From Natranaeroarchaeum sulfidigenes (GTDB taxonomy: Archaea; Halobacteriota; Halobacteria; Halobacteriales; Natronoarchaeaceae), in NCBI RefSeq assembly GCF_017094485.1, contig NZ_CP064786.1:2232001-2296000 (forward strand): a stretch of DNA of 64,000 nucleotides, written 5' to 3'. Below, in pieces: positions 24,941 through 35,286 of this stretch; the stretch's first letter is position 1, and each line of letters begins with the position of its first letter. Under the pieces are notes generated by a model, which saw only the letters and a list, made by a program, of their open reading frames with translations, did not search any database and was not told the origin of the DNA. The position numbers were made by a program, and so were the translations under genes.

Positions 24941-25720
24941 ATGGCAACAGCCGAATCGGCGGTCACCGTGCACACGGACGTGCCGTTCCGGGACGTGGCG
25001 GGCGAGACGCTCCGGCTCGACGTCTACGAGCCAGCCGACCGTGAGGGGTCGCTTCCGGTCGCCCTCCTCGTCCGTGGGGGTGGGTTCCTCATTGGCGACA
25101 AAGGCGAGTTCGCCCGGCACGCGATCGACTTCGCGAGCGACGGCTATCTCGCCGTCGAACCGCAGTACAGACTCGCGCCCGAACACCAGTTTCCCGCAGC
25201 GCTCAGGGACGTCCGCGCGGCGATCGAGTGGGTCCGTGGGTCGGGAAAGCAGTACGGCGCGGACCCCGACCGTGTCGCCGCGATCGGGCACTCCGCAGGC
25301 GCAAATCTGGTTGCGCTCGCCGCGGCGACCGCTGGGGAGGCGGGTGTCGCTCCGCCCGCCGCGGTCGTCGGCTACTCGGGGATCTACGACTTCCGGGCTG
25401 GCGACGAAGACGGCGCATCGGGGGACTCCGAGATCAATACCCAGTATCTCGGCGGCTCCTTCGAGGAGGTCCCCGACCGTTACGAGGCGGCCTCGCCCGC
25501 GGCCCGAGTCGACGACTCGATGTCGCCCACGCTCTTGCTCCACGGGAACGACGATGGGGTCGTTCCGCCCGCACAGTCCGAGCAGTTTGCCGAGGCGCTC
25601 GCACCAGTAGCCGACGTCGAGTTCGAGACGCTACCGAGCGATCATGCGGTGCCGTTCCACGGTGACATGTACGACGAGGTGTACGAACTGACGCGGGACT
25701 TTCTCGAAGAACGAGTCTAG
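24941..25720 (+). CDS. Alpha/beta hydrolase (HSL-type esterase)
   Basis: 259 residues from ATG 24941; the frame is open upstream but the extension is not family-like. Nucleophile elbow GHSAG, acid Asp in LLLHGNDDGVVPP and catalytic His in LPSDHAVPFHGD complete a triad. The oxyanion block reads RGGGFLIG, with Arg in place of the His usual in the HGGG motif of hormone-sensitive-lipase-type esterases. It is probably a cytoplasmic carboxylesterase. The stop TAG and the convergent gene's stop share the four bases CTAG at 25717-25720. Confidence 0.87.
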   Translation: MATAESAVTVHTDVPFRDVAGETLRLDVYEPADREGSLPVALLVRGGGFLIGDKGEFARHAIDFASDGYLAVEPQYRLAPEHQFPAALRDVRAAIEWVRGSGKQYGADPDRVAAIGHSAGANLVALAAATAGEAGVAPPAAVVGYSGIYDFRAGDEDGASGDSEINTQYLGGSFEEVPDRYEAASPAARVDDSMSPTLLLHGNDDGVVPPAQSEQFAEALAPVADVEFETLPSDHAVPFHGDMYDEVYELTRDFLEERV

Positions 25721-26823
25721 CCGCTGGCACCGGAGCCGCCCGATTCAGGTGGCCCATCGTCTCCCGTCTCAGCCGTCGCGTCCTCTCTCGACGGACTCGA
25801 CACGCCGTGGGTTCGATCGAACACCGTCACGGCCGCCTTGAAGAGCGCGAGCAGAATCGGGCCGAGGAACAGACCCATGATGCCGAGCAGGTAGATCCCG
25901 CCGAGGACGCCGACGAGCACGATGGCGGGGTGGACGCCCGACCCCGCATCGACGAAGATCGCGCGGAGGTAGTTGTCGACCACCGAGAGGACCGCGATGC
26001 CGTAGACGAGCAGGATGACAGCGCCGACCGGTTGACCGACGACGACGAGATAGACGACCATCGGAGCCCAGACCAGCCAGACGCCGACTACGGGCATGAT
26101 CGAGGCGATGACCATGACGACCGCCCAGAATGCCGCGTTGGGGACGCCGACGAGCCAGAGACCGATCCCCCCGAGAATCCCCTCGACGACGGCGACCAGC
26201 AGGTGGCTACCGATGACGGCCCAGGTGACGACCGACATCTCGTCGTAGAGTTCGTCCTGCACGTCGTTGTCGAGGGGCGTCACCTCGCGCGTCCACTCGA
26301 CCAGATCTGGGCCGTCGACCAGCAGGTAGTAGAGCAGGAAGGCGAGGATCAACACGCCGAACCCGACGTCGACCGTCGTATCCAGCAGGCCGAGCGTCTG
26401 GGTGAGCAGGATCTCCGCCGAGGCGGCCAGCAGGTCCTCGAACTCCTCGATCGCCGCGGCTTCTATCTCTTCGACGTGCTCAGCATCGACGCCGATATCC
26501 TCGACAAGGAAGTCACGGACCGAGTCCAGAAAGACCGAGAGATCACTTCCCTGCAGGTCGTCGAGAAACGAGATCGTCGTGTCGAGCAGGATCAGCGTGA
26601 GAATGAGGACAGGGACGATCGCAGTCACGAACGCCACCGCAGTGAGGACTGCGGCGGAGGGTCTTGGACCGATCCGTCTGGAGAGTCTCCTGTGGAGCGG
26701 GAAGAGCACGAACGCGAGCAGTCCCGCAGCGAGCACGTACTGGAGGAACGGGTCGACCAGCAGGAACCCGATAATCCCGAGGACAGCGACGAGGAGGGCG
26801 AAGAAGGCGGTTCGAACGTCCAT
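25717..26823 (-). CDS. AI-2E family (PerM-like) membrane protein
   Basis: 368 residues from ATG 26821-26823. The topology is typical of the family: an N-terminal hydrophobic pair, a long extracellular/soluble loop with acidic coiled-coil character (DSVRDFLVEDIGVDAEHVEEIEAAAIEEFEDLLA), then five to six further helices including GLWLVGVPNAAFWAVVMVIASIMPVVGVWLVW. The C-terminus is polar and disordered (SSPSREDATAETGDDGPPESGG). Relatives export autoinducer-like or ionic compounds; the substrate here is unknown. Confidence 0.87.
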   Translation of the reverse strand: MDVRTAFFALLVAVLGIIGFLLVDPFLQYVLAAGLLAFVLFPLHRRLSRRIGPRPSAAVLTAVAFVTAIVPVLILTLILLDTTISFLDDLQGSDLSVFLDSVRDFLVEDIGVDAEHVEEIEAAAIEEFEDLLAASAEILLTQTLGLLDTTVDVGFGVLILAFLLYYLLVDGPDLVEWTREVTPLDNDVQDELYDEMSVVTWAVIGSHLLVAVVEGILGGIGLWLVGVPNAAFWAVVMVIASIMPVVGVWLVWAPMVVYLVVVGQPVGAVILLVYGIAVLSVVDNYLRAIFVDAGSGVHPAIVLVGVLGGIYLLGIMGLFLGPILLALFKAAVTVFDRTHGVSSPSREDATAETGDDGPPESGGSGASG

Positions 26824-26907
26824 ACGGCGAGCACAGAAGGAAGCTATGTAAACATTGATATCGTCAGTACCGGGACTTTTTGCGCCACCGCGCCGACACC
26901 TCCAACG

Positions 26908-27336
26908 ATGCCCGCTCTCAGCGAACTCGTCGATGCACTGGACGGAATCGTTCACGAACCGACACAGCGACACGACGACAGAGTTGATCTGACTGTCAGG
27001 GAGGTGTTCGAGGTCAGAGAGCCGGGCAGGGTCGACTTCGGCGGCGGCGAGCTGGAGGATGCCGAACTCGTCCCGCACGATCGGACCTGGCGAAACGACG
27101 ATGACGAGTACCAGTGGTGGGGTCTCGACGCCGGTCAGTATCTGATCGAGTACAACGAGCGTCTGGATATCGACGAACGTGCAGTTTTGCAGGTTCGGGA
27201 CGAACTCCGGGCCCGCGGTGTATTCCATCCAACGCTACACGTCGACACGCTTTCGATGGTTCCACTATCGGTCGCTGCTGGTGGACTCCAACTGAAGGAA
27301 AACGCCAGAGTGTCGACACTGCTCGCCGACAGGTAG
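26908..27336 (+). CDS. dUTPase/dCTP-deaminase-fold protein
   Basis: 142 residues from ATG 26908; the long open frame upstream is antisense to the AI-2E gene and is not coding. The product shows the trimeric dUTPase-like beta fold: QWWGLDAGQYLIEYNERLDIDERAVLQVRDELRARGVFHPTLHVDTLSMVPLSVAAGGLQLKENARVSTLLA. The signature residues of a catalytic dUTPase or DCD are not all obvious, so it may be a paralogue of altered specificity. It would act in pyrimidine nucleotide balance. The gene is divergent from the AI-2E gene with about 85 bp between. Confidence 0.75.
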   Translation: MPALSELVDALDGIVHEPTQRHDDRVDLTVREVFEVREPGRVDFGGGELEDAELVPHDRTWRNDDDEYQWWGLDAGQYLIEYNERLDIDERAVLQVRDELRARGVFHPTLHVDTLSMVPLSVAAGGLQLKENARVSTLLADR

Positions 27337-27417
27337 GTAGAAAGGTGCTCGTTCGGCCAGTATTAAATCTGAAAATGAGACGTATAGTCAGTATATGGGA
27401 AGCCGTTTAGTGTGTCT

Positions 27418-27510
27418 GGAAGCCACTCCCGGATGCGTGCAGTCCAGCACGCACGGTCGTCATCCGGTGTTCCACTTCACCGGGCGGCGGCGGGGGGACG
27501 GCTGGCTTCC
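27418..27510 (+). ncRNA. Candidate structured RNA or hairpin element
   Basis: The 220-bp gap 27337-27556 has no gene but holds nested perfect helices. GGAAGCCA at 27418-27425 pairs with TGGCTTCC at 27503-27510. Inside, CCGGATG at 27429-27435 pairs with CATCCGG at 27461-27467, and GCGTGC at 27435-27440 pairs with GCACGC at 27447-27452 around a six-base loop. An alternative helix CCGGTG/CACCGG (27464-27469 and 27478-27483) competes with the second. On the plus strand a TATA-like TATTAAAT at 27361-27368 could drive it. The strand is uncertain because the hairpins are symmetric. It could instead be an insertion-sequence end. Confidence 0.45.
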
Positions 27511-27556
27511 GCCACGTGACTGGCCTCCGATGGCCGCCCTTCCGCCTTCGCACCTT

Positions 27557-28183
27557 CTATCGGCCGTTGGTCTCACCACTGACAAGCAACCCCTCGACGA
27601 ACTGCTCTTCTAGCTGTTCGCGGACGCCACGGGTGTACTCGGGGTCATCGAGGGTGATCTGGCGCGTCCGCGCACCATCGAGCGTTGCGACGATCAGCCG
27701 CGCAGTTCCCTCGGGATCGACCTCTCTGAAGACGTCCTGCTCGATCCCGTCCTGAACTATCTCCGCCACGGTGGTTCGGAGCAGTTCGTCGCTTCGCGCG
27801 AGTTGTTCACGATAGGCCTCGTTGAACGGGCCACGGGAGCGGAGTTCCAGCAGGGCGAGATGCAGTGCAGTCCGGTCCGTCTCGTCCGGCTCCAGAACCC
27901 ACAGGTCGAGGAACTGCCGGAGCCGTTCTGTCGGCGATTCGTCCTCGTCGGGCGCGACCGTCGCCTCGAACTCCGTGATAAGGTGGTCGATGAAGGCCAC
28001 CAGTAGCTCCTCTTTCGTGTCGAAGTGGTAGTGGAGCAGAGAGGTGCTTTTTCCTGCTTCGTCGGCGATCTGTTGCATCGTGAGATCAGCGTGGCCATGC
28101 TCGCACAGCGCACGATACGTCGCGTCCATGATCTCGGTGCGCGAGTCCGAAGCAGTGTTCGACTCGTCCTGCGTCTCGGTCAT
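27557..28183 (-). CDS. TetR/AcrR-family transcriptional regulator
   Basis: 208 residues. The N-terminal HTH is clear: MDATYRALCEHGHADLTMQQIADEAGKSTSLLHYHFDTKEELLVAFIDHL, followed by a helical ligand domain with the usual C-terminal packing helices. It should repress its own promoter and possibly a distant target. No transporter lies next to it, which is unusual because such regulators often sit beside an exporter. A near-perfect palindrome overlaps the bases immediately before its ATG. The operator is described separately. Confidence 0.92.
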   Translation of the reverse strand: MTETQDESNTASDSRTEIMDATYRALCEHGHADLTMQQIADEAGKSTSLLHYHFDTKEELLVAFIDHLITEFEATVAPDEDESPTERLRQFLDLWVLEPDETDRTALHLALLELRSRGPFNEAYREQLARSDELLRTTVAEIVQDGIEQDVFREVDPEGTARLIVATLDGARTRQITLDDPEYTRGVREQLEEQFVEGLLVSGETNGR

Positions 28184-28184
28184 C

Positions 28185-28202
28185 TGACTGATTAGTCAGT
28201 CA
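28185..28202. promoter_or_regulatory. TetR operator palindrome at the regulator's own start
   Basis: TGACTGATTAGTCAGTCA matches its reverse complement at 16 of 18 positions and starts 2 bp upstream of the TetR ATG. A site this close to the start codon would block transcription or initiation directly, so autorepression is likely. No second copy was found near another gene in the window. Confidence 0.7.
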
Positions 28203-28260
28203 GCAATCGGTAAACGAGTTTCGGAGTCCACTCGGCGGAGAAGCCGAGTCAGCCCATTAC

Positions 28261-28311
28261 TTTTTTTTTTTGAAGCGATATACTTCGAGAACTGTAGTGT
28301 GGTACTACAGT
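28261..28311. repeat. T11 tract and hairpin, possible IS-end remnant
   Basis: Eleven T residues at 28261-28271 are unusual in this GC-rich sequence. They are followed by GAAG-N7-CTTC (28273-28286), then by the exact inverted repeat ACTGTAGT (28291-28298) / ACTACAGT (28304-28311). The block CTTCGAGAACTGTAGT at 28283-28298 closely matches the arms of the inverted-repeat element at 62355-62437. No gene lies between 28203 and 28369. A terminator is unlikely because the T tract precedes rather than follows the hairpin on the plus strand. Confidence 0.5.
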
Positions 28312-28369
28312 CCAACTATGCCGTACCCAGGTACCATCCATGGGTGTTGGTACACTGGCTGGGCCGCGA

Positions 28370-29179
28370 TCACCGCGCCTCGCTTGGATCGACAACCTCG
28401 CCGCTCTCCGGATAGACGCCGATCTGCTCACAGAGATCCGCCATCGGGCAGGCGTCGGGGTCGTCCAGACAGGCAGGCTTGCGTGCCGAACAGTACTCTC
28501 GGCCGAACTGGATCGTCGCAGTGTGGCCGAACCCACACTTCTCGGCCGGGACGTCCCGCTCCAGTACCGTTCGGACCTCCTCGTGGTCCGCGTCGGCGGG
28601 TGCGATTCCCATGCGCCGGTAGATCCTGTGGACGTGCGTGTCGACGGGAAAGACGCCGTCACGGCCACCCGCGAAGAGGAGCACACAGTCGGCCGTCTTC
28701 GGGCCGACGCCACGCATCTCCAGTAGCACCTCGCGTACATCGGCCGGAGGCTCCTCGCGGACGAACGCGTCGAAGACGTCCGTCGAACCGTACTCCTCGA
28801 CGACGAGTTCGGCGACGTCCTGAATCACGCGCGATTTCTGGTTGTACAGCCCCGCCCCGCTGATCGTTTCGGCGAGCTCCGCTCGTTCGGCCGCCGCAAG
28901 CGTCTTCGCAAGGTCGGCCCCGTTGACGTCGTATCGCTCCATCAACGCGTCGTGAGCGGGCTGGCTCGCCTTGTCGCTCGTGTTCTGGCTGAGGATCGTC
29001 CGGACGAGACATTCGAAACCGTCGCGGCCCCCGTAGGCTTTCTGCCAGTAGCGCTCGCCTAGCCGGTCGACCACGCGTTCGGCACGGGTAGCCGCCTCGC
29101 CGGGATCGAACGACATTGCGTTACCACCGCCGGCAGGACCGCCACTGATATTCTCCGTCGGTTCCGGATCCTCCGTCAT
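28370..29179 (-). CDS. nth: Endonuclease III (HhH-GPD DNA glycosylase/AP lyase)
   Basis: 269 residues, or 248 if the second Met (29116) is used. The HhH motif is LLEMRGVGPKTADCVLLF with the catalytic lysine in GPKTAD, and the catalytic Asp lies in PVDTHVHRIYRRMG. A 4Fe-4S cluster is expected at C-x6-C-x6-C-x5-C near the C-terminus. The standard Nth spacing is C-x6-C-x2-C-x5-C, so four residues (within LDDPDA) are inserted. The enzyme removes oxidised pyrimidines and nicks at AP sites. It is divergent from aIF5A, with about 140 bp between. Confidence 0.93.
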   Translation of the reverse strand: MTEDPEPTENISGGPAGGGNAMSFDPGEAATRAERVVDRLGERYWQKAYGGRDGFECLVRTILSQNTSDKASQPAHDALMERYDVNGADLAKTLAAAERAELAETISGAGLYNQKSRVIQDVAELVVEEYGSTDVFDAFVREEPPADVREVLLEMRGVGPKTADCVLLFAGGRDGVFPVDTHVHRIYRRMGIAPADADHEEVRTVLERDVPAEKCGFGHTATIQFGREYCSARKPACLDDPDACPMADLCEQIGVYPESGEVVDPSEAR

Positions 29180-31323: not shown

Positions 31324-31371
31324 CTGCTCTCGATAGGGACGCTGCTAGATTGCGAACAGGTGACACTTGTT

Positions 31372-31415
31372 CCGCGACGCGGGTCGTCACACACCCGCCT
31401 CGCCCGGCGTCGCGG
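31372..31415 (-). ncRNA. Candidate small structured RNA between convergent genes
   Basis: CCGCGACGC at 31372-31380 and GCGTCGCGG at 31407-31415 are exact reverse complements, and GCGGGT/ACCCGC (31379-31384 and 31392-31397) forms a competing inner stem. On the minus strand AGGTTTATG at 31455-31463 resembles a TATA box and would start a transcript near 31430, running through the hairpin. The alternative is a bidirectional terminator for the convergent NIF3-like and DUF371 genes. There is no coding frame that I trust between 31324 and 31493. Confidence 0.35.
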
Positions 31416-31493
31416 CGCTCTACTGGGGCATGGCGGCTGTGGCCGCCCAATCGGACATAAACCTGTAGTCGTCGTCCGGTCAGTCCGTAGGAG

Positions 31494-34085: not shown

Positions 34086-34365
34086 ACGATAGCGATCGCT
34101 GGGGCGGTGTATCGCTCCAGACACCGATGATCATTTATATACAATCCGGATGTCTTGGTAACTCCTAACACGGCGTCTCAGGGCCCGTGCTAGCTATTTT
34201 CACCCTGATAATCACCGATACTTTTAAATTGAAAGCCCCAGTAGTAGTAGTTACCAGAACGTCACCGGCGTTCGGGTAGTATCGCTCGCAGACCAACATG
34301 ACAGGAACTGCTTATCACCGACCAGTCACAGTTTGTCCGAGCGATCACTATCCACCGGTGCGGGT

Positions 34366-35286
34366 ATGGCACAGAGGTTTGAACAACACATGGTAGACGC
34401 ACAAGAACTCGACGAATCCGACAACGTCGAACTAACCGAAGAACAGCTCGAAAACAATTCTAAAGGACAGCTCATCAAAATCGCCGGTCAGCTACGCGAC
34501 CGACGAAACGAGCTGAACCAGCTTGCATCCGACCGCGCCTCGAAACGCGACGAGCTCAACGCGAAGACACGCGAAAAGGTCGACGAAGCACAGGAACACC
34601 GCGAAAAACGTGACGAGCTCAACGAGCAGGTGCAAGAGCACAAGGAGAGCCGCAATGAGCTCAACGCCGAGGCGAACGAGCTGTTCGACAAAGTCGAGAA
34701 GATGAAGTCGGACATGGAGCTCGACGAGGGCAAGGACCTCGAAGAGCTCGAAGCGGAGATCGAAGAGCTCGAATTCAAACAGCAGACCGAGGTTTTAAGC
34801 ACCGAGGACGAGCGCGAGCTGATCGAGAAGATCGAGGCCAAACGCGAGGAGTACAACGAGCGCAAGGACAAGCTCAACCAGAACGAGGAGCTCGACGAGC
34901 TCGTCGAAAAGGCCGAAGAAGTCCGCTCAGAAGCCTCCCAGCACCACCAGAAGGTCACCGAACTCGCCGACAAGGCCCAGGAACACCACAACCAGATGAT
35001 CGAGGCCTATCGCGAGGCCGACGACATCCGTGACGAGGCCGACGAGATGCACGAGCTGTTCGTCGAGGCCCAAGAGGCCGCCGACCAGCACCACGAGGAC
35101 TTCGTCCGCGTCCAGAAGCGCCTACGCGAGCTCGACAAAGAGGAAGAAAAAGAACGCAAGTCCGAGCGCGAGAAAGAAAAGGAAGAAGTCGAGCAGGAAG
35201 CAGAAGAGATCTACGAGCGGTTCAAAGACGGCGAAACCCTCGAAACCGAGGACCTGATGAAGCTGCAGAAGGCGGGTCGGCTGTAG
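34366..35286 (+). CDS. Long coiled-coil protein, haloarchaeal
   Basis: 306 residues from ATG 34366; a TTG 11 codons upstream also opens the frame. Nearly the whole length from residue 40 to 290 is heptad coiled-coil rich in Glu, Lys, Arg, Asp and Gln, for example KRDELNAKTREKVDEAQEHREKRDELNEQ. Several LNE/LNA-spaced repeats suggest internal duplication. No catalytic motif is visible. Relatives are sometimes misnamed phosphoserine phosphatase. It could be a scaffold or chromosome-associated protein. TATA-like CTTTTAAATT near 34220-34230 would give a leader of about 110 bases, and a second AT-rich box lies near 34136. Confidence 0.8.
   Translation: MAQRFEQHMVDAQELDESDNVELTEEQLENNSKGQLIKIAGQLRDRRNELNQLASDRASKRDELNAKTREKVDEAQEHREKRDELNEQVQEHKESRNELNAEANELFDKVEKMKSDMELDEGKDLEELEAEIEELEFKQQTEVLSTEDERELIEKIEAKREEYNERKDKLNQNEELDELVEKAEEVRSEASQHHQKVTELADKAQEHHNQMIEAYREADDIRDEADEMHELFVEAQEAADQHHEDFVRVQKRLRELDKEEEKERKSEREKEKEEVEQEAEEIYERFKDGETLETEDLMKLQKAGRL

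Follow-up and report, generated by a model that had tools for sequence, protein, structure and literature searches.

A genus-restricted conserved intergenic block and its candidate structured RNA in Natranaeroarchaeum sulfidigenes

Introduction

Intergenic small RNAs and structured transcript ends have both been described in haloarchaea. A halite community has been reported to contain 613 intergenic sRNAs (PMC7002113), and in Haloferax volcanii 22 of the 27 sRNA genes studied are confined to the species and one is found in just one further genome (PMC3956466). Because 22 of the 27 are confined to H. volcanii, a narrow range can be taken as usual for haloarchaeal sRNAs. In the same species the median 3'-UTR measures 97 nt, and 503 RNA 3' ends have a hairpin immediately before them (PMC7237163).

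The present analysis concerns a 220-bp gap in a window of 64,000 nucleotides (G000:C1:2232001-2296000; all positions below are those of the window) from a genome of 3.04 Mb. We tentatively read positions 27385-27534 as a functional, genus-restricted noncoding element whose likeliest identity is a structured small RNA, roughly 100-160 nt long, made from the + strand; this reading is based on sequence comparison and is held with somewhat less than even confidence.

The Locus and its Flanking Genes

The 220-bp gap noted in an earlier sequence-only reading of this DNA was confirmed, and the ORFs on its two sides converge on it. The main features are as follows.

26908..27336, + strand: upstream ORF, 142 aa, with relatives at 19 loci, all haloarchaeal
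27337..27556, no strand: gap of 220 bp separating the convergent ORFs
27385..27534, + strand: conserved block; against the sister species 132/150 positions are identical, 16 substituted and 2 deleted
27557..28183, - strand: TetR-family regulator, downstream neighbour of the gap

The automatic gene caller overlooked the upstream ORF and instead called a long - strand ORF at 25717-27228. For the count of fourfold sites this call was replaced by hand-set ORFs at 25720-26823 (- strand) and 26908-27336 (+ strand), the latter being supported by its relatives. The upstream ORF has no Pfam match at E 0.001; by eye we take it to resemble dCTP deaminase. The gene neighbours of the block are unchanged in the sister species (G001), which is the sole other member of the genus among the genomes searched. 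In a family member of another genus (G007), an ORF of more than 1 kb, which by eye looks like a MATE transporter, lies between TetR and the upstream ORF.

The sequence-only reading also stated that no protein frame explains the symmetry of the region, and as regards a conserved protein this is correct. The ORF that spans the block (27395-27613) is broken in the sister, and a conserved protein is excluded because the ATG is lost there and two one-base gaps shift the frame. The block is intergenic and without a conserved protein, as expected of haloarchaeal intergenic sRNAs.

Two further observations were made on the far side of TetR. The gap upstream of this gene (28200-28360), both of whose neighbouring genes are on the - strand, contains several perfect hairpins, one of them followed by an 11-T run on the + strand, and only 28% of its length is alignable to the sister. 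The copy of the endonuclease III-like gene (28370-29179) in the sister is split by about 24 kb, and the two matching pieces overlap here by 8 bp (28647-28654), which may be the target-site duplication of an integrated element.

Phylogenetic Range

BLASTN found the block in two of nine family genomes, namely the window's own and that of the sister, and at E 1e-5 the same genus pair was recovered as the only two of 391 class genomes. When 392 genomes of the order, a set that overlaps the class set, were searched at E up to 10, a long match was again found in the two genus members only. At this threshold some match was listed in 390 of the 392 genomes, and two of the other 390 order genomes gave matches below E 0.001, of 24 and 31 nt; about 0.4 such matches would be expected if per-genome E-values are exact, and the two were taken as chance.

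The 700 bases past the upstream ORF at 19 haloarchaeal loci contained short local matches only, as raw scores without a shuffle baseline. At each of the nine family loci the best of 50 shuffles scored higher than the similarity to the block, and the interval between TetR and the upstream ORF in G007 contained nothing like the block above shuffles. A covariance model built from the two sequences recovered no further member in 117 genomes under strict filters.

Divergence from the Sister Species

Across the block, 16/148 aligned sites differ from the sister, in addition to two one-base gaps. At fourfold sites of the flanking genes 62/149 differ (upstream ORF 21/60; TetR 41/89, the highest fourfold divergence among 42 genes), and over the 42 listed aligned genes the count is 1617/6716. 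The block has therefore changed more slowly than near-neutral sites; Fisher tests give p 1e-9 against the fourfold positions of both flanking genes, p 8e-5 against those of all aligned window genes and p 0.02 against the 68 other sites aligned within the gap. Among the 20 other aligned gaps of the window, 10 have an identity of at least 0.88, the value of this block; these 20 are what is left of 34 gaps of at least 60 bp once the block's own gap, three with under half of their length aligned and 10 unaligned ones are set aside. The block stands out against its own neighbours, not in absolute identity. Differences from the sister are clustered, most of them on the 5' side of the structure proposed in the sequence-only reading, at 27419-27445, and the 5' part of the block, 27385-27418, is nearly invariant.

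Other gaps of the window were also found to be similar to the sister. The 620-bp gap at 1983-2602 is 95.5% identical where aligned (72%), contains repeated units, every one of which closes with ATCGGGGAGGGCGGAC, and folds strongly at 2400-2530 (z -4.11); an array of repeats or an RNA may be present. The gaps at 31324-31493 and 34086-34389 are 98% and 96% identical, set against a gene mean of 90%; small genes or RNAs that escaped annotation may lie in them.

Helices and Fold Strength

The helices described in the sequence-only reading, three of them nested and a fourth competing, are all present by exact match. Together with an additional closing helix they are listed here, with their state in the sister.

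27398-27404/27504-27510, + strand: alternative closing helix, intact in both species
27418-27425/27503-27510, + strand: 8-bp closing helix of the sequence-only reading; 6/8 pairs kept, one via G-U
27429-27435/27461-27467, + strand: 7-bp helix of the same reading; 6/7 pairs kept, one via G-U
27434-27440/27447-27453, + strand: inner stem of a hairpin; 6/7 pairs kept, loop altered and one base shorter
27464-27469/27478-27483, + strand: competing 6-bp hairpin; stem 6/6 pairs kept, 8-nt loop identical
27504-27510, + strand: 3' arm common to both possible closing helices

As a single sequence, the 93 nt at 27418-27510, a segment that had been picked for its helices, fold at -52.4 kcal/mol with a z of -4.05, and none of 200 dinucleotide shuffles was as good. 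The surrounding 171 nt give a z of -2.04 (8/200 shuffles as good), and their reverse strand a z of -0.88 (33/200). When both strands of the whole 64 kb are scanned in steps of 93-nt windows with 25 shuffles each, 11 of 2556 such windows reach z <= -4.05, this segment included, which places it in about the best 0.4%. The fold is thus notable, yet neither rare nor unique.

The sister does not preserve the nested architecture of 8-, 7- and 6-bp helices. Three of the four helices in the earlier proposal lose pairs there without any compensation, and the competing hairpin is intact. The minimum-energy fold of the 93 nt likewise forms this hairpin and lacks the 7-bp helix. A role for the competing helix as a switch also fails to find support: what exists is an overlap of arms between the competing helix (5' arm) and the 7-bp helix (3' arm), and the latter helix is damaged in the sister; the inner stem and the 7-bp helix in turn overlap at 27434-27435. 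A broader, genus-restricted switch can be drawn, in which the two copies of GGAAGCC (27398 and 27418) would vie for 27504-27510 and two inner helices for 27464-27467, so that the RNA would toggle between two closed forms of which the sister kept the outer one only. We consider such a switch very improbable. The copy of GGAAGCC at 27398-27404 is unchanged in the sister, and single-sequence folds agree with the state of the closing helices, as the 171 nt of the window close by the 27418 arm and those of the sister by the 27398 arm.

Consensus folding of the two species was assessed with RNAalifold on four segments, on both strands, with 300 column shuffles each. The segment 27398-27510 was the best of the four (+ strand z -2.42, 7/300 as good; - strand z -1.65), followed by 27392-27516 (+ strand z -2.11; - strand z -1.91) and 27385-27550 (+ strand z -1.48; - strand z -0.94), and the originally proposed 27418-27510 was no better than shuffles (+ strand z -1.10, 47/300 as good; - strand z +0.43). 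In the consensus fold of 46 pairs, 43 are identical, three are changed on one side yet paired via G-U, and none is broken. The differences tend to spare paired positions: of the 18 differing columns three are paired, and all three still pair through G-U. The conserved pairs lend weak support, because the fold was derived from the very alignment on which it is judged. Covariation between the two sequences was absent, with 0/46 pairs changed on both sides and 0/37 in a second test. What survives of the candidate structured RNA is thus a noncoding block that is conserved beyond its local background and whose + strand consensus fold is modestly better than those of column shuffles, and what does not survive is the specific set of helices.

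Promoter, Terminator and Operator Signals

A promoter weight matrix was trained on 47 upstream regions of the window; its consensus, AGAACTATTT, is reminiscent of a haloarchaeal BRE/TATA element. The best site on each strand near the block is given here.

27378..27387, + strand: promoter-like site, score 5.8, implied start near 27413, weak
27382..27391, - strand: promoter-like site, score 6.8, weak; its RNA would run towards, and antisense to, the upstream ORF

Both scores fall below the training median of 6.9, and the - strand site outscores that on the + strand. With a start near 27413 the conserved arm 27398-27404 would not be part of the RNA; either the start lies further upstream, then, or the alternative closing helix is unused. 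A bacterial-type scan returned one promoter-like site on the - strand, by a promoter model that is not applicable to archaea, and no T-run terminator.

The motif TAGTCAGT occurs at 27385-27392 and also inside a 20-bp palindrome that precedes the TetR start. An extended form of its pattern has two matches in the window against 0.12 expected, the pattern having been chosen after it was sighted. The palindrome itself (28184-28203) is near-perfect, lies immediately before the TetR start and is the sole exact match to its pattern in the genome; with one to three mismatches three further places are found, and a reversed control pattern gives an equal number. From its sequence and position it is a probable autoregulatory operator.

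Alternative Explanations

The main rival to a small RNA is a cis-acting or 3'-UTR element, in which the block would be conserved as DNA or as part of messages: promoter or regulator sites would occupy about 27378-27418, hairpins would end or stabilise the convergent mRNAs, and no free sRNA would be made. The position of the block between two 3' ends is consistent with this, as are the hairpins just before 503 RNA 3' ends and the 97-nt median 3'-UTR of H. volcanii (PMC7237163) and the presence of TAGTCAGT, shared with the palindrome before TetR, in the nearly invariant 27385-27418. However, this motif was picked post hoc and is a single half-site only, the constraint spans 150 bp, and a T-run terminator is missing, and we regard the explanation as serious but somewhat unlikely. 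It is also conceivable, and in our judgement rather unlikely, that the block is a non-functional, GC-rich stretch evolving neutrally or decaying, perhaps what remained when a gene that lay between the upstream ORF and TetR was lost, with a fold that arose by chance. The ORF of more than 1 kb between both genes in G007 would fit such a loss, and chance would suit the 11 of 2556 windows that fold equally well, the damage in the sister to the helices first proposed, and the half of the other aligned gaps that are as identical as the block. Against this stand the slower change of the block relative to nearby fourfold sites and the lack of any likeness to the G007 interval above shuffles.

Two other explanations carry far less weight. 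Inverted repeats within a gap could mark an insertion-sequence end or a miniature mobile element, a possibility that the sequence-only reading had itself raised. The insertion-sequence end is unlikely because a search at E 0.001 found no second copy of the block in its genome, and a mobile element of either kind is largely refuted at BLASTN sensitivity, the block occurring in 2/9 family and 2/391 class genomes, always in the same place and at no other site. Neither plasmids (20 of 28 records listed, with a best E of 0.6) nor phages (best E 0.7, 18 records) gave a meaningful match, and viral contigs had no exact match to the invariant 35-base core of the block; the chance of a mobile element is accordingly slight. 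That a hairpin-rich, noncoding block in an archaeal host might be an RNA-modification guide of the H/ACA or C/D box type is the least probable explanation of all. Rfam 15 returned nothing at gathering score in the whole window and, below that score, four matches in the gap with E of 3.4-8.9, and no tRNA was found in the window. Complementarity to rRNA, assessed as contiguous runs against the organism's 23S only, exceeded the best of eight shuffles by no more than one base, and a guide for rRNA would be expected to occur widely.

A Possible Small RNA and its Relation to Known Systems

On the small-RNA reading, an archaeal promoter around 27378-27390 would start transcription between 27390 and 27413. 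The transcript is predicted by computation to fold compactly into several arms, among them a hairpin at 27435-27452 and another arm spanning 27455-27503, and the predicted fold would be closed in both species by 27398-27404/27504-27510, provided that the start lies upstream of 27398. Such an RNA might regulate by pairing with targets or by binding protein.

If it is transcribed, the block would be one more lineage-specific archaeal small RNA. Such RNAs are abundant, yet for most of them the known relatives are too few for covariation, which makes the class difficult to study. For the block, a relative at a useful distance can be aligned, and the two already differ in which closing helix can form.

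Like the intergenic sRNAs of H. volcanii (PMC3956466), the block is intergenic, encodes no protein and has a very narrow range. Unlike the block, which is known from sequence alone, those sRNAs are detected transcripts, some of them with deletion phenotypes. The block also resembles the 3'-end hairpins of the same species (PMC7237163) in that it has hairpins downstream of genes in a short gap, and it differs from them in being multi-armed, conserved over 150 bp and placed between convergent genes.
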